This document shows, in pieces, positions 800 to 21,333 of a stretch of 31,594 nt of DNA. This stretch comes from a virus, in the IMG/VR virus record IMGVR_UViG_3300035034_000510, positions 1 through 31,594 of that record; one strand, 5' to 3'. Under the pieces are notes generated by a model. That model did no database searches. It had not been told where the DNA came from and worked only from the letters and a program-made list of their open reading frames with translations. The position numbers and the translations under genes were made by a program. Numbering within the stretch: the first letter of the stretch is position 1; every line of letters starts with the position of its first letter.

Positions 800-3700
800 C
801 TATTCATCGTCAAAGCCATACACTTTCATCAATAAATCCACCATGTCTCTGTTACCAGCTGGCACGGTTTTGCGGAATCTTTCTGCAGTTCCAAGTCTCG
901 CCATCTTATAGGACTTGTTAGAATTACTCACGAAGTTACGTATCTCTAATCCCGTACCCTTAGCAACGTCGTTCCAACCTTTGACCATCTCGATGACTTC
1001 ACGTCTCGCATCATCATCGCCCGACATCTTAGCTGCTATGTATCGAGCCTTGTAAGCAGAGGTCATCTCCTTAGTATAATCAGCTACACGTTGGGAAACT
1101 CGCACAACATCATTGTTCCGTGTTGCATCTGCAGGGTAGAACCCGAGTGCTCGACCGATGTATGTTGCTGCTGATAGATCGTGAGATACTACTTTGCCTT
1201 GGCTATTAACGATTGCATCCACATGATTGTAAGCTGCCATATCACCGAAGGCTCTTGCCATAGTGAATGGAGACTCCCGCATGATGTCCGTTAATGTAGT
1301 GGTATCGTCTCTCAGGCCTACAGTCTCAGCCGCGTACTTACCTATGTTGCCAGTAGTAACGATAGAATTCTGGATGAACGACGCAATAGGACCTGCTACT
1401 TCCATTAAGCTTCGACCCATATCAGAACCAGCTAGTCCGATGTCAGTGCCCGGAATTATATCACCTACTGAAGTTCTGTCCGATACGTTGATACCCATGA
1501 AAGTGTTGGCTAATCCACGCATAGCTAATGGAGATAAGCTTGGGTGAATCGCATGTACTGCTTCTGCAATTGTACGTTCCGCACTACCTTTCCAGAATGC
1601 ATTAGGTTTCATACCCAAGCCCTGAAGAATGGTGTCGATCATATCCATCATGTCTTCTGCAAAAGGTAAACCCTTCACACCACTTAATATCAACAACGCA
1701 CCAACGAACAAGAGCTGGCCTTTCCTAGACATCTGAGATGCTAACATAATAGATACAAGTGGGAACATCTTATACATGAATATGAACTGGCGAACATCAC
1801 CACGCCAGAAAGCTGGACGGTTAAACATCGCGTACTCACCAAGCGTCTGATCAATTATGTCAGTAGCAAAGTCCTTCGACCTATCCTGTAGAACCTTGAG
1901 TTCATCAGCAGGTATTTTAGATTCATCAGTCAGCTTGTTGTCCTTCATATACTCTTGCTTAGCCCGAGCGTAGTGAAGTCTGAATGCTGTAAGGCCAGTA
2001 CCACGACGTGATGCTTGCTCAGTGTAAGAGAACATTGACATCCAAGCTTGCATAGATTGTTGTGCCGCACCAGAAGTAATCTTACCCATAGACGATCCCA
2101 TCAATGCGTTTATTAATGCTGCCGCCATCGTACCTTCACGAACCTCGTCATACATGAACTGGACTTCTGCATCTGTAAACCCTGCAGCTCTCGCTTTCTC
2201 TGCGGCCTCAGCATTTTGCTTAGCAGTCTTCTCCTCACCATCAACCCGCATGTCATCCCAATATGAAGCTTCCGATTGACCGGGTGCCTTCACTTGGTTC
2301 ATTGCATGTAATAATTCCTGCTGAGCTTTCATCAATCCAAAACCACCACCGAAGTTAGTGTGCGGATTATAAGAAGCCAATACTGGAACCACGTTAGTCT
2401 GTAATGCAAGTATGTTTAGGACACCTGTAGCTACTGATCCACCCAACTGAGCAAACGTAGTCCACATACGAAGTTGTGCACCAGGTCCTGCAGATGCAAA
2501 ATCTGAGAACTCCACACTATTCTGTGCTTGTAGGAATGCTAAGTCCCGTGATGCCATGTCTAAGTATCGACGGCCTTTGTGCTTAGAATCTTTTACTACA
2601 TAGGTATAGTGCTGGCGATCGAATGCGCGCTTCAACATCTGCTTCACTTCACTCGCAACACTCGGATCAGCCTCAGCATATTTCCATGCATCACGTACAG
2701 CATTGTAAGTTGTCTCACTACCCAACCATAAGTCTCGTGATGCTTGATTGTTAAGGTTAGTTAGCTCAGCTACGTCTTCACGGTATTCTTTACGTGCAAC
2801 AGTAGATGCTATGCCTTCAAGCTTCTGAGATAGGAACCTCACCATGTCAGCATTCTCACCCGGAGCACCTACACGTTGAAGGTGATTCCTTGCACGAGCG
2901 TTCTGCTCCGTAAGACCTTTAACTAAACGCTCACGAGCATTCGGATGTAGCTGCACACTGTATCGCTGTAATGTAGATAACACTTCATTAAGGTTCGCTC
3001 CTGCAGGGTCAGGCATATTCTTCTGTGCGACTTCTGCAGTAGGAACTAATAATACTTTTCTATTACGGTACACTTTCTGAGTGCCACCTGAAGTACCATT
3101 AGGAAGAACAATGTCTTCATTAACCTCGACCATTATATTGTAAAGCGTATCAGCACTCTCATCGAACTTATCTTTATCCGTGTAAGCATCCTCCTCCTTA
3201 GTCTGAGAATATCGCCCTACGTTTATTGATTGATTCAATCGCTCGGCCATACGCTGAGCTTCCGACATACTTTCGGTACGCATGTAGGCGAACTGATTCC
3301 TGAACTCTTCATGGACTCGGTATATCTGACCAGTCTCTGGATCCTTAGCTTGGATATATACCTGCCATCCACCCTCACGACCTAACGGCATGTGGCCATT
3401 AGCTATAGATGACTTAGCAAACTTATCAGCACCTGTTACTGATGCATGCAATGCGCCCTCAGTCTGGATAATGTGCTGGATGTTGTATCGTAAGCCTTCA
3501 TTCTCGTTGCCCGGAAGTATAGAACCTGTACGTAGTTCCTTAATACCCTGCTCAATACGTGCACCATCTTTTGTAATCCACTCTGTTACGAACGGTTCAA
3601 TACGATCGGTGTCTTTACCAATCAAAGCCATGTTGAAAGCCTTAATGAATTCCAAAGCGTTTTCTTCTCTCTTAGCAACATCCACTTCTTGAATCTCAGC

Positions 3701-6700
3701 GTAACGCTCAGTAATCATACGTAGGAAATCGCGATCACGAGGGTTAAGGTCACGGCCTAATACTTTCTCAATCCGACGGTTACCACTCATTTGCTGCTTG
3801 TAGAATGACGTGATGTTAGCCATCAGTAAATCGGTATCAGCTTCATTCGCAGTATCGTACGCTGCGTTATACCCTGCCCACACAAGCTTAGGTACATTAC
3901 CTTTCCCAACACCCGGCACTTTAGTTTCCACATCCACATAATAGAAACCCGATTCTTCCTGAGCATCAAAGTCTTTATTAATTTGCTCAATCTCTTTCTC
4001 ATCAGTGACATCTTCTAATGCTTTCGCACGGTCAGCAGCGTTAGCTTTCTTAGCCTCAGCAGGATTATCCTCTGCAGACTTCGGTGCACGGTGTGAGTAG
4101 GTGAAACCATCTTCCCATTCCTTGAGTGTTATACGACCCATAGCACCTAGCTTTTCAAGCGTATCTTTGTTGATCACTACACGGCCATCAGTTTTGTATT
4201 CAAATAACTTGTATTTACTCAGTTCCTTATCAGAAACTTTGCCCATGTTCCTTCGTGTAGTGTGACCCAGCATCCCATTAACTTCTGCATACTCAGCCTT
4301 CTGCATACCACCACCAATCTGAATACCGAAAGGCTCAAACATAGGTCTAAGTAATACGCGCATCTTCTGGTTGTATTTAGTACGTAACGCATTCACACGT
4401 TGTACCATCGAGCGCATCAACTTATAGAACGCCTCGTACCCTAAGTTCTCACGGGCAGAGAAGTTCATTGGCTTAAGTTGACCGATGAACCGGTCATAGT
4501 AATCAGGTATGTCTTTAATCTTATCAGTAACCCGAGTCTGCATACCCGCAGTGTTAGTCATATCCGCAACACCAGCTGCTGCTGCTGCATTACGCTCACC
4601 GAAGTAGGGTTGCGAGATCGAATACATTGATACTGAATCTGGATCAGTCATGGTCTCGTACTTCACCATGTCTCTACCAATCTTGCTACGGATAATATCA
4701 ACCGGTGGCATCTTGCCATTACGTACGTATCGACGAGACCGACTGATTAAGTATCGAGCAAAGTCATCAGGTAATGGTCTACCTAATAGTTTCCTAATAG
4801 TGTCCTTGATAAAATCCCAGAACCTTTTCAGTACATTCGTTGGTAAGTTACCAGCCATATCAGCTAGGTATTCTTCAACCGCTTCACGCTTAGACATCTT
4901 CTGGTCTTTAGCGCGCTGTGATTCCAACGTCATATCAACTGCCGACTTAATATAATCCACTTCGTTGTAGACTTTATCGAGTGCAGCATTCAAAACATTA
5001 GGTGGCACAATACTACGTAAGCCAAAGTGACCTATCGTCTCGTGCATTAGTACAAAGCTTAGCTCACCTGGATCCACCACGTTATCTGAAAAGATTACAA
5101 CCTGGTCCTTATATGAAACACCAACAGCGCGCACTTCACCAAGGTCTTTATTAGGTCGACCGTCGTTGATCAACTTATATAGCGTAGGATTCTTGGCTTG
5201 TAAATCTGCAGCGTTACGTACAAACGTGAACGTCGGCTTGATACGTAGCTTGTTAATAAATGATTGGGCTGCGAGTTTAACTTCTCCCAATGTCATATTA
5301 CCAACAGGCGCATCATCATCGATACGACGGAAGTTAGTACCATCGTCATCGTATGCTGACATTAAATCTTGCTCAGCTAAGTCTGCTTGATCCATCTCTT
5401 CAAGTGACAGGAACTCCGACTCAGCTTTAACATCTGAGTTGTCACGTATCTCAGCTTGGGGTGCAACCGAGTTTACCTGCGACGAAGAGTAACCTAAGTC
5501 TGAGAGTGTCTGGGCTAGGAACTCATTAGGAACCTTGCCCCTTAAATCTTCAAGAGCTTCCTGAATTGACATACGGCTAACAGTAGCATCGTTCTCAATA
5601 CTCACTTCACGAACAGATTGATTCTGCTCCTCAGACATATACACTGGTACAGGAATACCACGCCAGTCTTCATTCAGATCACCATCGGTAAAGTAATCAC
5701 TAATCAAATAACCATTACCCATTGCCATGTCCTGCTGGCCTGCTTCTTCTACCTGCACGTACAGCTTCTCGTAAAGTTCCTTACGACCATTGATGTTCTT
5801 ATCCTTATCGCGAGACTTGCGTTCGGATGTAGTGATGTCGCTGAGGAACTCCATTAGCATCTGAGTATCTTCAGACTTCGGTGCTTTATTAGTCTTAGTA
5901 GTCTTAGTAGTCTTAGTAGTACCTTCTGGGATTACAACTTCTGTCTTAGAAAAATTCACATGCCTTTTAGTGAGGCTCCAGAAGTCAGTATTGTTTCGCT
6001 CATGCTCTTGTAAGAATTGCCCAAGCGGAGAACTAACATCAATATCCTTCTCAACCCTTGATATGACAAGCATGGATTTATGCCAGCTCTGGTCCTTATC
6101 AAGACTCATTGCTGCTTCCCAAGCTTCTAGCGCAACCTGTTTACTTTCTGCATAACCCTGCACAAATGCTCTTACTAATAACTCATGCTGGAGAGATTCA
6201 TATGCATAAGGTTCTACGCTTCGAGTCTCATCCATCAGTTCCACAATCTCGTCGTTACTTACGTTAATGTCCACCAAGGAACTAACGTCTTCATTCATCG
6301 CTGCTTCTTTGAATTTCTCCAACTTCTCCTGACGTTCACCTTCGCGCTCTTCATCAGTTTTCTTTTGGCGACCAGGCTTACGCTTCTCTACTGCTTCAGA
6401 TTCCTGATCCAAGGCATTAGCTAAATCCAATTCAACTTGCTTAACACGAGCAGTCACGTCACCCATTGATTTCTCAAAGGTCTCAACTACTGCACCCATG
6501 GTTGATGCAACGGTCTCCGTTACCTGTTTGATTACACCAGAACTATCTTCCTCTTTCTCAGCTGCCGGCGCTTTAGGTTCTGCTTTCGCAGGTTCCTTGG
6601 GCTCAGTTTTAGCTACGGGTTCTGCTTTATCTTCTGAATCTGGTTTCTTCTCTGCCGCAGGTTTAGTTGCTTTCGCTTCTTTAGCTGCTGTACTTTTCGT

Positions 6701-10670: not shown

Positions 10671-11711
10671 CTAGGATATTGCATTTGTTAGCAGCTCTTT
10701 CCCTTTATCTACCGCGGCCTCTTTTATATCCAGCCCCCCTGTTGACTTGGCTTTGTCTTGACCTAACGTATCTTGTATAAACGTACCCGCATCTGCGGCC
10801 GCTGTTCTACGACGTTCTTCCTGCGTATCCATCCGACCCGCTATATCTAATCCTGCGTTCAACGCACCCGTTGGTGCACTACCCGGTAACAGTGCCGCAC
10901 CAGCTGCCAGAGTTTTCGTCTTCTTGTCTTGACCTGACTCTAAACCTTGGAGGTATGCTGACTGCGCATCACTCGTAATCTCTAAACCTGCACGGCGCCT
11001 ATCAGCAGCAGACAAACCTCGACCGCCTTCACGCATTTTTGCTTCCCTATCAGCGCCACGCATCTGAACGCCACCTGCTATTTGCACATCACGCTGAGCT
11101 TTCAAACCTACTTGTTCTGGATCAACAGCGCGCCCTGACTGAATAACTTCCTGAGCCAAGGTCATCTTCTGATCGAATAGTTTAGCATCGTTTGATCGGA
11201 GGTTATCCAAATCACCCGACAGTGCTTCCATCAGTTTCCGCTCCTCATCAGAGAGGCCATCACCCGCCATAGCTGCACCACCTAAGTGGGAGCCTGCGCG
11301 CATTATTAGATTCGCTATGTACTTGGGGTCTTTCATTTTGGCTGTGATGTCACCCGTCATACCACTCGCATAACCCTTAGCTTTTTCCACAATCGAATCA
11401 AAAAAACCCGCACCTTCCTCCGCTGTTGGACCACCAGGTTGGCCACCGGTAAACATTGACATAATGCCACCGCCAACTTTCGACAATCCCGCCTTACCGG
11501 CGGCACCTATTGTCTTAGCCCCCGTTGCCACGGTGTTAAAGAAACCGCCACCTGCTGCACCCGACATGCCCATTGCCCCGACTGCATATGGCGCTGCAAA
11601 TAAAGCTGCTGCCTTCCATACGTCAGGGTTCTTAACTGCACGTTCCGCCTCATTGGCTATACTCTTACGTGTATCGTTTAAATCCGATGCCTGTTTTCTT
11701 ACGAAACCCAT
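10671..11711 (-). CDS. Probable internal virion protein with Gly/Ala hydrophobic N-terminus
   Basis: A 346-residue protein. After a short charged start, residues about 35-92 are Gly/Ala/Met/Phe rich and hydrophobic, enough for membrane insertion; most of the rest is helical and charged, with an Arg-rich patch around 225-245. The N-terminus overlaps the end of the oxygenase/GNAT gene by 13 bases, indicating translational coupling rather than an independent strong ribosome site. Together with the 553- and 2728-residue neighbours it looks like a set of ejected proteins that could build a channel through the host envelope, as T7-type core proteins do. No sequence-level family match is claimed. 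Confidence 0.8.
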   Translation of the reverse strand: MGFVRKQASDLNDTRKSIANEAERAVKNPDVWKAAALFAAPYAVGAMGMSGAAGGGFFNTVATGAKTIGAAGKAGLSKVGGGIMSMFTGGQPGGPTAEEGAGFFDSIVEKAKGYASGMTGDITAKMKDPKYIANLIMRAGSHLGGAAMAGDGLSDEERKLMEALSGDLDNLRSNDAKLFDQKMTLAQEVIQSGRAVDPEQVGLKAQRDVQIAGGVQMRGADREAKMREGGRGLSAADRRRAGLEITSDAQSAYLQGLESGQDKKTKTLAAGAALLPGSAPTGALNAGLDIAGRMDTQEERRRTAAADAGTFIQDTLGQDKAKSTGGLDIKEAAVDKGKELLTNAIS

Positions 11712-12640
11712 TGCTCATACCCCATTGCCATTTTATGCTCACCACCAACAAACTCTGTCTCTTCCATACCACACTTCAGTGAGAACCCAAATACATTCTC
11801 ATACTCTTTCGGTATCGAAGCAATAACTCTATTGGCACCTAGGATATCAAATGCATACCCTAATGCTTCCATCGCTAACTCATATGCAATATGCCTGAAC
11901 TCTGGAACTATGTTCACATGAATCTCCCAGTCATCACCTTCAGGATGTAATATTATTACAGCCCCTTGGTTAATCAGGTAGTGGTGGTCATCATCAATAG
12001 GCAATTTAAAACTACCATCTTTACCACCAATACTCTCCCATATTGCAGGATGTTCAAGTACATGCATGATTGCTTCTGCGTCTGTTGTACGTTGTAACAG
12101 TGATGGATCAAAGAAACATATTAATAGTTCCCTAGCATCTTCACCCTTACCGTGACCCATAATAGGTTCACCCCTATGCATAAGAGATGCGTCATACACT
12201 ACAGCTTTGTTCGGTCGAAGTGCCTCGAAATGATATATGTCCCAAGCTTTGTAATCGTTCTTATCTCTATCCCACTCGGCTGCATATAATGGATCGTTTG
12301 CAATCATACCCGTTTCTGCATGGCGTACAAAAGAAGTACCACCCTTGCCTTGCTTGTACACGATACAAGTGAAAGCACCCATATTCATATCTGTATGTGC
12401 TTGGTAGGGCTCAACATTACCCTCCTCAAACCTACGTAAAAGTGTTTTGTTTGGGGCAATCGTGAAACCAACTTGTTCCATAATTGCACGATACAAATCA
12501 CTCTTAACTTCCCTAGGTAGGTCATCGCATACTGCTGGGTACACAGCACCATCTAGGTTCTCCACTTCACTGAAGTTACCTCGGAACGCTTGTAACGCAC
12601 CAAAGTCCTTCAGGAAGTTTTCTGCCACTATTACACTCAT
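11699..12640 (-). CDS. 2OG-Fe(II) oxygenase fused to GNAT-like domain
   Basis: A 313-residue two-domain protein. Residues about 1-185 look like a 2-oxoglutarate/Fe(II) dioxygenase of prolyl-4-hydroxylase type: iron ligands H82 and D84 in an AHTDMN motif, the distal H155 in SLMHRGEP, and R170 in ARELLICFF as the 2OG-binding arginine at the usual spacing after H155. Residues about 222-300 resemble a GNAT acyltransferase core: a beta strand into VPEFR, a helix, a strand ANRVIASIP and the terminal helix leading to KCGMEE. The acetyl-CoA loop (normally R/Q-x-x-G-x-G/A) reads RHIAYE, so this half may be degenerate. The gene overlaps the upstream virion gene by 4 bases (ATGA) and the downstream one by 13. 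Substrate is unknown; a virion protein or a host component is possible. Confidence 0.8.
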   Translation of the reverse strand: MSVIVAENFLKDFGALQAFRGNFSEVENLDGAVYPAVCDDLPREVKSDLYRAIMEQVGFTIAPNKTLLRRFEEGNVEPYQAHTDMNMGAFTCIVYKQGKGGTSFVRHAETGMIANDPLYAAEWDRDKNDYKAWDIYHFEALRPNKAVVYDASLMHRGEPIMGHGKGEDARELLICFFDPSLLQRTTDAEAIMHVLEHPAIWESIGGKDGSFKLPIDDDHHYLINQGAVIILHPEGDDWEIHVNIVPEFRHIAYELAMEALGYAFDILGANRVIASIPKEYENVFGFSLKCGMEETEFVGGEHKMAMGYEQWVS

Positions 12641-13464
12641 GCTTGACGGTCTGGATCATATTTACTAATCATGTTGTCAAAGAACTCTTTGCCCTTCGAC
12701 TTCACAATATGCGCTGGGATTACGTACTCACCTCGCGACACATTGATCGGGATGCTATCGCTAGTACCTGTGCCCGGTCCCACTACATGACCACCCTCTG
12801 CAGCATTGTCCATGGGTTTAACATAACCACCTTTAGCAAAATCCTGTATCTGGTCTTCCACAGGAGCACCGCCTGCAGCTGCTGGTTCCGCACTACCTGA
12901 CCTTATCTTGTCCTTATCCTGCCACGCTAGGTAAAGCACGATAGCTGTGAATATAAATTCTGGATCATACTCTGGAGGTAAATCACTGGCACCCATTGCT
13001 GTTAGCCGCTGTAACATTTTCGGATACATATCAGGGTTACGTGCAACGACGATCGCCATCTTGCCACCCTGCATTAACATCTCTTCCGTCATCTCACCCA
13101 TTTCAAGAGCGTCTTCTGCGGCCTTCAACATCTTCTCTGCCATGGCGGGTTGCTCACGAATCATACGCTTAGCCTCACCCTCTAAATCTTCACCACTCAC
13201 AGGTGCTTGAGGTTGACCACCGGGTACCGCTAAACCTGCACCACCTTCAGGGCCGAGACCTGCATCTACCTCTGGAACTCCACCTGCTGCGGGGTCTACT
13301 ATCCCACCCTCAGCAAAACCTGCGACGGCTTGTGTATCTAGTCCACCTTGTTGTGGTGCCGCTGGAGCTGCCGCTGGAGCTGCCGCTGGAGCTGGTGCAT
13401 CCTCAAATGCAAAATCAAATAAACTATCAATGGATCCTGGTAAATCTTCAGATGGAGTTTTCAT
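12637..13464 (-). CDS. Virion structural protein with GPGTGTSDSIP motif
   Basis: A 275-residue protein. The N-terminus (about residues 22-40) is an Ala/Pro tract from a 12-bp repeat. A helical Met/Glu-rich middle follows (about 95-190). The C-terminus carries FAKGGYV (209-215), GPGTGTSDSIP (229-239) and GEYVIPAHIV (245-254); a second FAEGGIV copy lies at 50-56. The combination of a GGxV turn, a GPGTGTSDSIP stretch and GEYVIPA is familiar from phage virion proteins and from tape-measure C-termini, but its role is not settled. AGAGGAAT precedes the ATG. It is the first gene of a coupled set with the oxygenase/GNAT gene. A minor head or tail component is the best reading. Confidence 0.8.
   Translation of the reverse strand: MKTPSEDLPGSIDSLFDFAFEDAPAPAAAPAAAPAAPQQGGLDTQAVAGFAEGGIVDPAAGGVPEVDAGLGPEGGAGLAVPGGQPQAPVSGEDLEGEAKRMIREQPAMAEKMLKAAEDALEMGEMTEEMLMQGGKMAIVVARNPDMYPKMLQRLTAMGASDLPPEYDPEFIFTAIVLYLAWQDKDKIRSGSAEPAAAGGAPVEDQIQDFAKGGYVKPMDNAAEGGHVVGPGTGTSDSIPINVSRGEYVIPAHIVKSKGKEFFDNMISKYDPDRQA
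13358..13393. repeat. 12-bp tandem repeat (x3)
   Basis: Three perfect copies of GCCGCTGGAGCT (plus-strand orientation) encode the Ala/Pro tract at about residues 24-36 of the 275-residue virion protein. Slippage would change tract length in frame. Confidence 0.9.
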
Positions 13465-13465
13465 G

Positions 13466-13834
13466 TTATTCCTCTCGTGCCTTTAGCTGTAAAATCAGCG
13501 AGTTCAGATAGGTTAATAATACTGTGTTATCTGCGCGTAATATATCAACATCTTCCTGCAGTTCTTTAAAATCAGCTAGTGTGGGTACAGTTACATCCCC
13601 ACTTGCTAGTACAGTCGATGCACTTAAAATCCCTACACCTTCCTGACCTCTCTTTAATGCTGATAGTTTAGGTTCTGGTGCCTTTAGTAATCTAATATCT
13701 GAACGTAATATAGCAGCATCACCTTGTCGCTGCCCCATTAGAATTTCTAAATTGTACTTTACTTTTTCAAACCAGTCTAAGTCCTCTACTGCTTTACTTG
13801 CGGGAGGACCTGGTATGTTACGGAACTTACTCAT
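13466..13834 (-). CDS. Small coiled-coil protein, probable virion or assembly factor
   Basis: A 122-residue protein of unknown family. Its last third (about residues 85-120) is a leucine-rich heptad-like helix, and an earlier helix (about 18-55) contains regularly spaced Leu/Ile. No membrane segment or Cys cluster. Its start overlaps the stop of the 789-residue tail gene (ATGA), so it is translationally coupled to it, and it ends one base before the next gene's start. An oligomeric accessory of the tail or of the neighbouring virion protein is an inference from position. Confidence 0.75.
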   Translation of the reverse strand: MSKFRNIPGPPASKAVEDLDWFEKVKYNLEILMGQRQGDAAILRSDIRLLKAPEPKLSALKRGQEGVGILSASTVLASGDVTVPTLADFKELQEDVDILRADNTVLLTYLNSLILQLKAREE

Positions 13835-16200
13835 ATCTGTCTAAGACCTATTGGTGTTTCTGCTAAGTGGATGGCGCGCACTCGTATGGAACCTGTTACG
13901 GATACTTCATACGTATCAGTACGGTAACCTGTTGGCAACCTGAATATTTCGCTGTCCGTTAGTATCCTCTCGAAAACTAATTCCTTGTTTGCCCATAACC
14001 TAAATATAACCTGGGTTGTTAATCCGCCATTAGCCGATTGGTATAAGAAATCTAAGTATGGATCCCCTGCCCACATGCCACCGTTAAACAAGTACGTATT
14101 GTAACCCCCTAGCGATGTGTTTATATCGGGGACAATACCTATTGCATTTAGTTCCGCAATGGTGGCCGCGTTGCCAGCTATAATATCATCGTTGTAATCA
14201 TCAAATGCATCACCAAATTCGGTGCTGTCATAGTCAGCTACAACTCGAGCTGCACCAAGATTTATATAGGTTGGGATTATGAATACTTTTGATTTCCAAT
14301 CCATAACTCCAAACGGGTAATCATTACTATCCCACTCAAAGATTGTCTGTGAGTTCTTGCCTATGATGTATGCTGAGTTGTCTAGCTTGTCCACCCATAT
14401 TGAATCGAAGGATGTAGGCACATCAACGTAGACACCTTCTGTATCATCAGAGCGTTCATAAATAAACGCACCTGTTCTGTATGAAGCTAGGTATCTATTC
14501 TGGTACGAATCAGCCACGATCCTAGTATAGTCAACCTCGTTCTCCCATGTATCCCAGTCATGGATTAACTTCGTTATTGTATGTATCCCAGTATTAGGTG
14601 AATACATTACCAGACCACTATGGCTGGCATACACAACTCCGTAATCCATTGCTACTACTGATCGCTTCGATACGCATGGGAATAAAGCATCTATGCGACT
14701 ATGTGACATAGCGTCTGGGAATCCACCATCAACTCGGTAGGGGTATGACTCCGTGAGTACAATGATCGTACCCATCACAACAGCGACGGCAACAATATCA
14801 TACTCAAATGTAATGCGGTTTCTCTCGGGCCATGCATGCAGTTCCATGGGTTCTGATAGCAAAAGCTGATTACCTATGAAACCACAAGCAATGTTATTTG
14901 GCCCCATTACTAATCCACGCATGCCATCTGGTGGCGCATCGTACTCGGCACTCGATAATGTAAATAATAAGTTACGGCTCTCGAAGTCATCAATGAAGTC
15001 GTAGTTAACATCACCCCAGTATCGAGCTGGTTCCGTTAGGAGTTCCGCAACATCATGGTACAAAGTACCTGTAACATCTGCAGTATCAGCTACATCTACC
15101 CCTGCGTTAGCGTACTTAAATGTATACCGGTCAATAACCTCAGTAACAATCCCACCCGTAATATCGAACGTAGCAATAGTACATCCTGCTAACTTAAATC
15201 TATCATCAGTAATTAAATTGTGGGGGTCTATTGTCTGAACCCTAGCTATACCCGCTGTCCTACTAACCACTGACGATGTGCTCGGGAAATATAAATCCTT
15301 AAGCCTGAAATAATCAGAACCGTTTGCAGTTACTACTGAGCGGTATAAACGTATACCCGCAACGAAGTAATCTACGCCTGGTCCTGCTGAGGGTAAACCC
15401 CCAACAGTAACTGTCTGACCCTCACGCATGTAGTCATCATCAGAAGCTAACGATGGAACTGACTCTTCACCGAATGCCGATACCCAAGTGTATACGTATG
15501 AACGTATAGTATTCCCACCTGCTAAATTAACCTTACCATTTCCGTTTGCTGCGAATGTTATTGCATCGCCACGACTGAAATAATTTATCTCGTCGGGACC
15601 TAGTACAGTGATTTCCATGTTCTCTGTATTGAGCCCTGCTGCTGCTCCTATGAAACCCGTTACTGATACGATGTTACCATCACGTAAATTATGGTTAGCA
15701 CTAAATCTTAGCCGAGCCTCACTAGCACCATCGCGCCCTGCGAATGTTGTCGTTAGTTCCGAGAAGGGTGTGATATTCGTAGTAGGCTTAAGTGTAGGTA
15801 GTGGCAGACCTAATCGATAGGAATTACTCGGGTATGGCTCAGCACCACTGACAGCTAACTCCAACCAACTCTGGCGGGGGTACTCATCACCAGTGTAGAA
15901 AAACCTACGATCCAGGGTGAACGCTGAATTTTTATCATCAATGTCCGACCGGAGTACCACATCAACATCAACTCCCCACGACAACCAGTAGAACGATCCA
16001 CTCGCGTCGCGCATGCCAAATATAGTCTCAACCGTGATAGGTGAACCGACAGTGTATTCTGCTCTGGGTATTCTGTAGGGGACTAAATCACCTGAGTATA
16101 GTTTCAGGTTATTAGCTACCTGTGCTTTTGACTCGGGCAATAATTCCGGGGACGTACGTGGAGTCTTCCCTTGGAATTTATCTATCTTAATAGCAGCCAT
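13831..16200 (-). CDS. Large beta-rich tail protein (nozzle-like)
   Basis: A 789-residue protein. The N-terminus has a pattern AQVANNLKLYSGDLVPYR (about residues 27-44), an 'x-N-x-x-L-x-x-G-x-L-x-P' arrangement typical of large podovirus tail proteins such as tail-tubular/nozzle proteins. The rest is predominantly short beta strands with many Asp, Gly, Tyr and Thr, as in beta-propeller or OB-fold nozzle proteins, and has no membrane segment. AGGAGTAGCT precedes the ATG. It follows the endolysin gene by 12 bases. Role: probably the distal tail tube or nozzle. A baseplate-like structural protein is the alternative. The class is likely; the exact homologue is not claimed. Confidence 0.75.
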   Translation of the reverse strand: MAAIKIDKFQGKTPRTSPELLPESKAQVANNLKLYSGDLVPYRIPRAEYTVGSPITVETIFGMRDASGSFYWLSWGVDVDVVLRSDIDDKNSAFTLDRRFFYTGDEYPRQSWLELAVSGAEPYPSNSYRLGLPLPTLKPTTNITPFSELTTTFAGRDGASEARLRFSANHNLRDGNIVSVTGFIGAAAGLNTENMEITVLGPDEINYFSRGDAITFAANGNGKVNLAGGNTIRSYVYTWVSAFGEESVPSLASDDDYMREGQTVTVGGLPSAGPGVDYFVAGIRLYRSVVTANGSDYFRLKDLYFPSTSSVVSRTAGIARVQTIDPHNLITDDRFKLAGCTIATFDITGGIVTEVIDRYTFKYANAGVDVADTADVTGTLYHDVAELLTEPARYWGDVNYDFIDDFESRNLLFTLSSAEYDAPPDGMRGLVMGPNNIACGFIGNQLLLSEPMELHAWPERNRITFEYDIVAVAVVMGTIIVLTESYPYRVDGGFPDAMSHSRIDALFPCVSKRSVVAMDYGVVYASHSGLVMYSPNTGIHTITKLIHDWDTWENEVDYTRIVADSYQNRYLASYRTGAFIYERSDDTEGVYVDVPTSFDSIWVDKLDNSAYIIGKNSQTIFEWDSNDYPFGVMDWKSKVFIIPTYINLGAARVVADYDSTEFGDAFDDYNDDIIAGNAATIAELNAIGIVPDINTSLGGYNTYLFNGGMWAGDPYLDFLYQSANGGLTTQVIFRLWANKELVFERILTDSEIFRLPTGYRTDTYEVSVTGSIRVRAIHLAETPIGLRQI

Positions 16201-20002: not shown

Positions 20003-20656
20003 CTACACCCAAGGCCGTGGTCTGACAGCCACTGAAGCTCGACCGTTACCTAGATTCTGCCTAGCCCTGCGACCAGCATTACGGTAACTAAACTGTCTTT
20101 TGTGGAACTCAGCTAGTTTCATATCTGTCCAGCTTTTATCAGGGAGCATGTATAGATACCCCAAGGCACCATCCATTACTGCATTCTCTATCTCATCAAA
20201 AACAGACTCATCCATACCTGCTGCTGTGCGGAGAGGCTTCAATGCGACCATCATACTAAGGTCGTAATTCTCTTCGTCATCAGGTACAGGTGCCATACCA
20301 AACTGGTCGGCATCAAGATGGACTATAAACTGTGGTCTGGATAAATGTTCGGGGTCGTGGTTAGGCCAATCAGGATATTGGTCGTAGATATCCTCGAAAG
20401 TACATGGGATTATTTTGGTCCCATTAAGAGCAACATGAATAAATGCATGCACCTCTGCGTTATTAGGTGGCTCGTACGGGTAGTTATGTAGACCCGGAGT
20501 CAAACGTATAGGGGGTTGCTGATACTTCCATGCTAGGGTCTCCTCACACACTTCAATCGCCGCGTCGCGTATATACTTCTCAATGACTGGGAACGGACAT
20601 CCCGGTACATTAGTTACTAATCGCTGTACGAGCGTATCAAAATTACGTGTTGGCAT
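20003..20656 (-). CDS. Head-tail connector/adaptor-type protein
   Basis: A 217-residue protein with Trp/Tyr/Pro-rich segments (for example TPGLHNYPYEPP and DQYPDWPNHDPEH) and an Arg-rich C-terminus. The N-terminal helix pattern (FDTLVQRLV...IEKYIRDAAIEVCEETLAW) is typical of podovirus adaptor and connector proteins that follow the portal-capsid genes. The ATG overlaps the stop of the preceding 225-residue adaptor (TAATG), and the gene ends 8 bases before the next ATG. Both proteins are probably stacked under the portal to hold the tail. The specific ring position is inferred. Confidence 0.75.
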   Translation of the reverse strand: MPTRNFDTLVQRLVTNVPGCPFPVIEKYIRDAAIEVCEETLAWKYQQPPIRLTPGLHNYPYEPPNNAEVHAFIHVALNGTKIIPCTFEDIYDQYPDWPNHDPEHLSRPQFIVHLDADQFGMAPVPDDEENYDLSMMVALKPLRTAAGMDESVFDEIENAVMDGALGYLYMLPDKSWTDMKLAEFHKRQFSYRNAGRRARQNLGNGRASVAVRPRPWV

Positions 20657-21333
20657 TAGGTTGGAACCTCGGCTTTTCTATTCCCATCTTCCTCGTCTGA
20701 AATCTCACGAGACTCAAGACCTGCATTCAATGCTTGGAAGAACATCTTCTGTGAAGCTGCTGCTCGACCAGAACTGACGTGCTCATTGTCGATAGACTCC
20801 GCTAAATATATCACGCCTTCTATGATAATAGGTAGGTATGCATCCTGAAGATCATCGATAGTTCCACCATTGGGGATCGGTGTTACGTCGTTTAAATCTA
20901 CTTCAGTGTAAGTGCGAGGTTGCCGAGAATACTCGATGAAAAGTTGCACACCTGTAGATGGGGGTGGGTAAAGAAAATATCGGTTAGGGTTCCGGACATG
21001 CCGCATCCAATTTACTGGTGGGGCCGATGGGTCTGATTTCCACTGAGGGTACGATTCATCCATACTCTCACGTTCTACTTCGGTGATACCATTGCCCCCA
21101 ACGACATTGAATACCTCCATGATCCGTACGGAATTCGCCGGTGCGGTCTGAACTGCTGCACCCACTATCGGGGTGATGTCAGCCATAAATGCGAATAAAT
21201 CTGGGCGTACAACAACCATAAGCCGAAGGGCTCGGTTAATGAGGCCTACAAGAACTTCGTCACTATAACGATAAGGAACTCGCTCATCCTGTATAGATAA
21301 GCGAACCCCACTTAGAACCTCACTTAATTGCAT
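20656..21333 (-). CDS. Head-tail adaptor (gp4/DUF6682-like)
   Basis: A 225-residue protein. It begins MQLSEVLSGVRLSIQDERV and has the pattern of the podovirus adaptor family: short N-terminal helix, a VLVGLINRALRLMVVVRPDLF helix (about residues 27-47), a beta portion with RYFLYPPP (about 117-124) and a C-terminal helical part. In this family the protein forms a ring below the portal and closes the head after packaging. It is directly coupled to the next adaptor gene by a one-base overlap and follows the KA-rich gene by a few bases. Function by family resemblance, likely. Confidence 0.78.
   Translation of the reverse strand: MQLSEVLSGVRLSIQDERVPYRYSDEVLVGLINRALRLMVVVRPDLFAFMADITPIVGAAVQTAPANSVRIMEVFNVVGGNGITEVERESMDESYPQWKSDPSAPPVNWMRHVRNPNRYFLYPPPSTGVQLFIEYSRQPRTYTEVDLNDVTPIPNGGTIDDLQDAYLPIIIEGVIYLAESIDNEHVSSGRAAASQKMFFQALNAGLESREISDEEDGNRKAEVPT

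Follow-up and report, generated by a model that had tools for sequence, protein, structure and literature searches.

2OG-Fe(II) oxygenases and GNATs are both common in phages, where they are filed singly as auxiliary metabolic genes. Published examples have been treated separately, as nitrogen-signalling, DNA-repair or host-metabolism genes (PMC3037559, PMC11288001, PMC6918029), and others are filed under the transferred names 'minor coat protein', 'DNA endonuclease V' and 'head morphogenesis'. A cobavirus GNAT encoded beside internal virion proteins has been likened to T7 gp13, with a suggested role in virion morphogenesis (PMC6775973). T7 gp13 and podophage GNAT genes such as BcepIL02 gp65 adjoin internal virion proteins, as does the GNAT half of the protein described here. 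The likeness is one of gene position, and unlike the present gene they stand alone without an oxygenase.

The window, which is the whole 31.6-kb stretch of DNA analysed, is a linear virus record of an uncultured short-tailed (podovirus-type) phage. One of its genes encodes a fused 2OG-Fe(II) oxygenase/GNAT-fold protein, P0001. The closest system, IMGVR_UViG_3300024519_000035 (L195), has the same oxygenase and a GNAT that likewise lacks the acetyl-CoA loop, 48% identical over residues 5-311 and in the same order, with a DNA-ejection-type gene next. Unlike in the window, its oxygenase and GNAT are two genes. The sequence family of the oxygenase half is DUF6445 (PF20043), which includes cyanophage phrog_1644 proteins; the ACG-2014j member shares the HxD, H and R residues. 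Unlike the window, cyanophage and bacterial DUF6445 members have no adjacent GNAT in the regions read. By fold, the oxygenase half is best matched by vCPH of chlorella virus PBCV-1 (5c5u), but at 14% identity. The SpeG spermidine N-acetyltransferase (8fv1) shares the GNAT fold along the full length of the domain (Z 15.9, rmsd 2.4, 132 residues). SpeG retains a glycine-rich CoA loop while the window protein does not, and nothing suggests polyamines for the latter. In a literature search with most subscription journals outside its scope, no paper was found that links a phage 2OG oxygenase with a GNAT. The gene pair, built of two known families, is apparently undescribed, and the fusion appears to be a variant of a recurrent pair.

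The fused gene and its junction

The minus strand of the window encodes a recognisable terminase, head-tail adaptor/portal, major head protein, virion structural proteins and an internal virion protein. The latter (phrog_511; 13831-16200) was assigned with PHROGs, has relatives at related loci and was used as a synteny anchor. The fused gene, its parts and its two neighbours lie on the same strand. The fused gene (11699-12640, 313 aa) overlaps the preceding gene (12637-13464, 275 aa) by 4 nt and the following gene (10671-11711, 346 aa) by 13 nt, as the first-pass annotation of this DNA had reported. The end part of the 275-aa protein resembles tape-measure proteins. The 346-aa gene is syntenic with an ejection-type gene elsewhere; its product shows no detectable sequence similarity either to ejection proteins from L195-type phages or to those known in PHROGs. 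A structural protein at 20656-21333 recurs at 100% identity in a pair of short contigs from other metagenomes, L097 and L098, so the window phage is present in more than one sample. Both contigs end before the fused gene.

Residues 1-180 of P0001 (12101-12640) form the DUF6445-type oxygenase domain, assigned from a structural model, fold matches and Pfam, and residues 181-313 (11702-12100) form the GNAT-fold domain, assigned from a model with SpeG-type GNATs as fold matches. The window has the only fused member found; every other member is unfused. The DNA of the junction (residues 178-186; 12083-12109) was compared with that of L195 and a second relative, L196. In L195 the oxygenase and GNAT genes lie in different frames with a 7-nt overlap. 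Where the L195 GNAT starts with ATG the window has CTG, and the oxygenase stop codon is gone, with a net deletion of 5 nt. Taken together these differences, read from the single contig that crosses the junction, favour a genuine fusion of the two genes. An error of assembly or sequencing, with two separate genes in the phage, would fit the unfused state of all other members, and a second contig across the junction was looked for in IMG/VR with exact peptides and not found. A base slip, however, would leave the GNAT start codon intact, whereas in the window the start codon has become CTG, the stop codon is lost and 5 nt net are missing. We regard an artefact as very improbable.

Relatives of P0001 surfaced only with alignment-based scans. 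A direct search of 50,697 phage records with the whole protein and an exact-peptide search of IMG/VR each returned no relative. The first tblastn matches, in cyanophages (E 0.6-8), were treated as leads only, and their product names were not accepted as function. A sequence search of solved structures matched only antibody light chains, with E values of at least 0.5, which were taken as chance.

Folds and catalytic residues of the two halves

The two domains were folded separately with AlphaFold2. The oxygenase model (residues 1-188, 11 homologues) reached pLDDT 87.2 and pTM 0.84. The Foldseek matches listed for it were 2OG enzymes (best E 1.4e-05), and the top VIA-align match was a viral collagen prolyl hydroxylase (Z 13.1, rmsd 2.6, 137 residues). 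Many other 2OG enzymes, including AlkB, scored within 1 Z of this match, so the fold comparison does not single out a subtype or establish a prolyl substrate. An oxygenase profile found no match among solved-structure sequences.

The first two iron ligands lie in H82-T-D84 (12389-12397), the third is H155 (12176-12178) and the expected 2-oxoglutarate-binding arginine is R170 (12131-12133). All four residues are identical in 38/38 sequences, although the homologues are only ∼29-48% identical to the window protein; R69, H107, R156 and E158 are likewise invariant (38/38). The predicted double-stranded beta-helix fold, the HxD...H ligands and a basic residue after the distal histidine (R170) are the features of the 2OG-Fe(II) superfamily. 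The N-terminal half is thus a predicted Fe(II)/2-oxoglutarate oxygenase with a complete catalytic residue set. The positions of these residues had been noted in the first-pass annotation, which named non-conserved metal ligands or a missing fold as grounds for rejection; the ligands proved invariant, which excludes a chance arrangement, and the 2OG fold is supported by the model and by comparison with solved structures.

DUF6445 (PF20043) matches the window protein at 25.3 bits, marginally over the cut-off of 24. Among the homologues it scores 47.4 bits in L179, 37.2 in L200 and 35.6 in L195, with others slightly under the cut-off. PHROGs assigns the oxygenase half to phrog_1644, 'minor coat protein', a label that looks misleading because cyanophage members match DUF6445. 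The Sf-FS3 member of phrog_1644 has a DUF6445 match plus weak 2OG-FeII_Oxy matches, and was deposited as a prolyl-4-hydroxylase-type 2OG dioxygenase. Cyanophage proteins named 'minor coat protein' (phrog_1644) or 'DNA endonuclease V' (phrog_274) at L094:2629-3378, L096:1674-2198 and L177:1501-2268 match DUF6445 or, weakly, 2OG-FeII oxygenase families, and these names look to have been transferred in error.

The GNAT model (residues 180-313, 8 homologues) reached pLDDT 93.4 and has a complete GNAT topology (strand-helix-helix-three strands-helix-strand-helix-two strands). Comparison with solved structures supports the fold, the best matches being SpeG-type enzymes (Foldseek 3.2e-07). At the sequence level, a GNAT-family profile also matches diamine acetyltransferases in the PDB (2.5e-05). 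Pfam Acetyltransf_3 scored 19.8 bits, under its cut-off of 25.4, and Pfam by itself is weak support for either half.

The acetyl-CoA loop position is occupied by R249-HIAY-E254 (11879-11896), in which the glycines are lost. The aligned stretches read EFR-HIAYE in the window, ESR-KDAFK in L195 and EYRKEHAKK in L196, and the pyrophosphate loop R/Q-x-x-G-x-G/A is missing from all three. In the profile-PDB alignment SGKGYA of SpeG lies opposite a shorter, glycine-free stretch. Because the stretch lacks glycine, we class the window domain as a GNAT fold rather than as an acetyltransferase; by its sequence it lacks the motif that defines acetyl-CoA use and is probably CoA-incompetent. The RHIAYE reading made earlier was correct. 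The accompanying proposal of two activities in one protein is left without support for its second half, since the loop is absent from the window and its two closest relatives, and the loss fits better with the fallback that the GNAT half has turned into a binding module.

The oxygenase-GNAT pair in other phages

Homologues were found by scans with oxygenase motifs only, the last of which detected the oxygenase in 37 viral contigs. A locus was scored as paired when a GNAT gene lay directly downstream of the oxygenase, overlapping it or ≤14 nt away. By this measure a GNAT directly follows the oxygenase at 33/37 loci, or in 21/25 clusters at 70% identity, with the window not counted. The proposed fusion within a virion gene cluster is therefore backed by homologues and gene neighbourhood as well as by structure prediction, with the pair recurring as separate adjacent genes and the fusion confined to the window. 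The third gene of the paired loci is usually an ejection-type virion gene. A hydrophobic stretch rich in Ala and Gly typically opens its product, which matches the DNA-ejection family phrog_598 in L195 and L242 and, weakly, in L245. At the other paired loci the GNAT loop reads, for example, RKGGAG or RRGGAG, and the GNATs tested from there match Acetyltransf_1. Since most oxygenase-paired GNATs retain a normal CoA loop, the pair may well acylate in phages outside the window's lineage.

The exceptions fall into two arrangements. In L251 the GNAT lies upstream of the oxygenase instead, within the same gene cluster. A 121-aa ORF between the two genes (L251:3555-3920) has an end resembling the final part of a GNAT and no Pfam match. 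In L250, L252 and L253 (around 3400-4980; three clusters) no GNAT was found near the oxygenase, which is preceded by a methyltransferase-like gene and followed by a P22 gp4-like tail accessory gene.

Oxygenase and GNAT identities covary over 11 pairs (Mantel r 0.71, p 0.004), driven mainly by the split between the window, L195 and L196 and the rest. Trees of both proteins set these three apart with full support. Scanning in reverse, from the GNAT half, recovered nine more loci, L209-L217 (several near-copies; L213 incomplete), where a member of this GNAT family has no oxygenase in front of it.

At 73 related loci, which include those of the phages nearest to the window, just a short gene of 144-167 aa occupies the slot between homologues of the 275-aa and 346-aa proteins. 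In BcepIL02, Itty13 and Rhizobium phage RHph_TM3_14A it carries an acyl- or acetyltransferase annotation, and the gene of the last phage scores with Pfam GNAT families. The scanned slot genes of metagenomic relatives gave no Pfam GNAT-family score, and we infer their GNAT nature from the pattern. When the 73 genes were made into a profile, it had no significant match to the GNAT half of the window protein, so sequence does not support a common origin for them. No oxygenase of this subfamily was found at the loci of these relatives; a DUF6445 scan of complete records from 18 syntenic phages was uninformative, as it gave no match while the controls were equally silent. Because the GNAT family occurs without an oxygenase in L209-L217 and a short slot gene is present in the 73 relatives, the GNAT seems to be the core gene, with the oxygenase as an accessory set in front of it.

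The GNAT-type gene lies by synteny in the virion cluster beside internal virion or ejection genes, and in this sense is gp13-like; Pfam scans of the window, slot and paired-locus proteins matched no gp13-type model. As neighbouring virion-cluster genes in ∼20 other phage lineages, the oxygenase and GNAT probably cooperate in building the virion. Tight pairing, joint divergence and fusion suggest, by association, that one oxygenase subfamily and one GNAT subfamily make up a single functional unit in the virion block, and the purpose of these phage enzymes is thereby open to direct test on virions.

Possible roles and distant relatives

Computation supports both folds and shows that the ligands are conserved, that the gene pair recurs, that the loop has been lost and that the junction is in frame. 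For the role of the protein we favour, tentatively and somewhat short of calling it probable, an active oxygenase tethered to a gp13-like, CoA-incompetent GNAT module and modifying an internal (ejection) protein; its activity, substrate, timing and part in ejection are all covered by that qualification. P0001 would be the joined form of a recurrent two-gene phage module. Its GNAT-fold domain would occupy the virion-cluster place where other podophages have a short stand-alone gene, several of these being GNATs likened to T7 gp13. With its acetyl-CoA loop lost, this half would most likely serve as an assembly or docking factor for the internal protein, and docking would bring the oxygenase to that protein for hydroxylation during particle assembly. 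A broader proposal, that the oxygenase hydroxylates an internal virion protein while the GNAT partner acylates or chaperones the product, is in our view rather unlikely. If true, genome delivery would depend on oxygen, iron and 2-oxoglutarate in the producing cell.

The strict adjacency of the two genes, together with the canonical CoA loop and Acetyltransf_1 scores of most unfused partners, could also point to a bifunctional enzyme whose two halves hydroxylate and acylate one and the same virion or host protein, the GNAT half taking up CoA despite its odd loop. Both loop glycines are lost, however, and the stretch is shortened in the window, L195 and L196, which makes this rather unlikely. 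Alternatively, the genes might merely be housed in the virion block and tailor a small molecule, a peptide or a host or phage surface structure, for example to change a receptor. Many fold matches of the oxygenase have small-molecule substrates, and DUF6445 is joined to a glycosyltransferase domain in L181, adjoins a methyltransferase-like gene in L253 and in bacteria lies close to a tryptophan halogenase in L190. The position just before an ejection-type gene is nevertheless retained in ∼20 clusters, which is unusual for a free-standing metabolic gene, and we consider tailoring unlikely. The usual reading of phage 2OG oxygenases and GNATs, as auxiliary metabolic or DNA-repair genes, has been put forward for cyanophage and roseophage genes (PMC3037559, PMC11288001, PMC6918029), and AlkB is among the oxygenase fold matches. 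It is quite improbable here in view of the fixed position in the late virion cluster and the tight coupling to the GNAT gene, and the subfamily shows no link to replication genes.

Distant relatives of the oxygenase occur in other settings. One (L256:3941-4501; 26% identity to L203) is encoded by 66 cultured Flavobacterium elemo phages, where no GNAT accompanies it and a DNA primase/helicase gene lies nearby. A protein of marine virus AG-345-O18 is a distant member outside the virion-cluster pair setting. The bacterial DUF6445 gene noted above lies close to a Pfam Trp_halogenase gene (L190:3602-6645), and L191 is similar. Phage proteins of 865-1172 aa combine a family 2 glycosyltransferase domain with a C-terminal DUF6445 oxygenase domain (L181:3640-6237, L185:2719-6237), a pairing that recalls lysyl hydroxylases.
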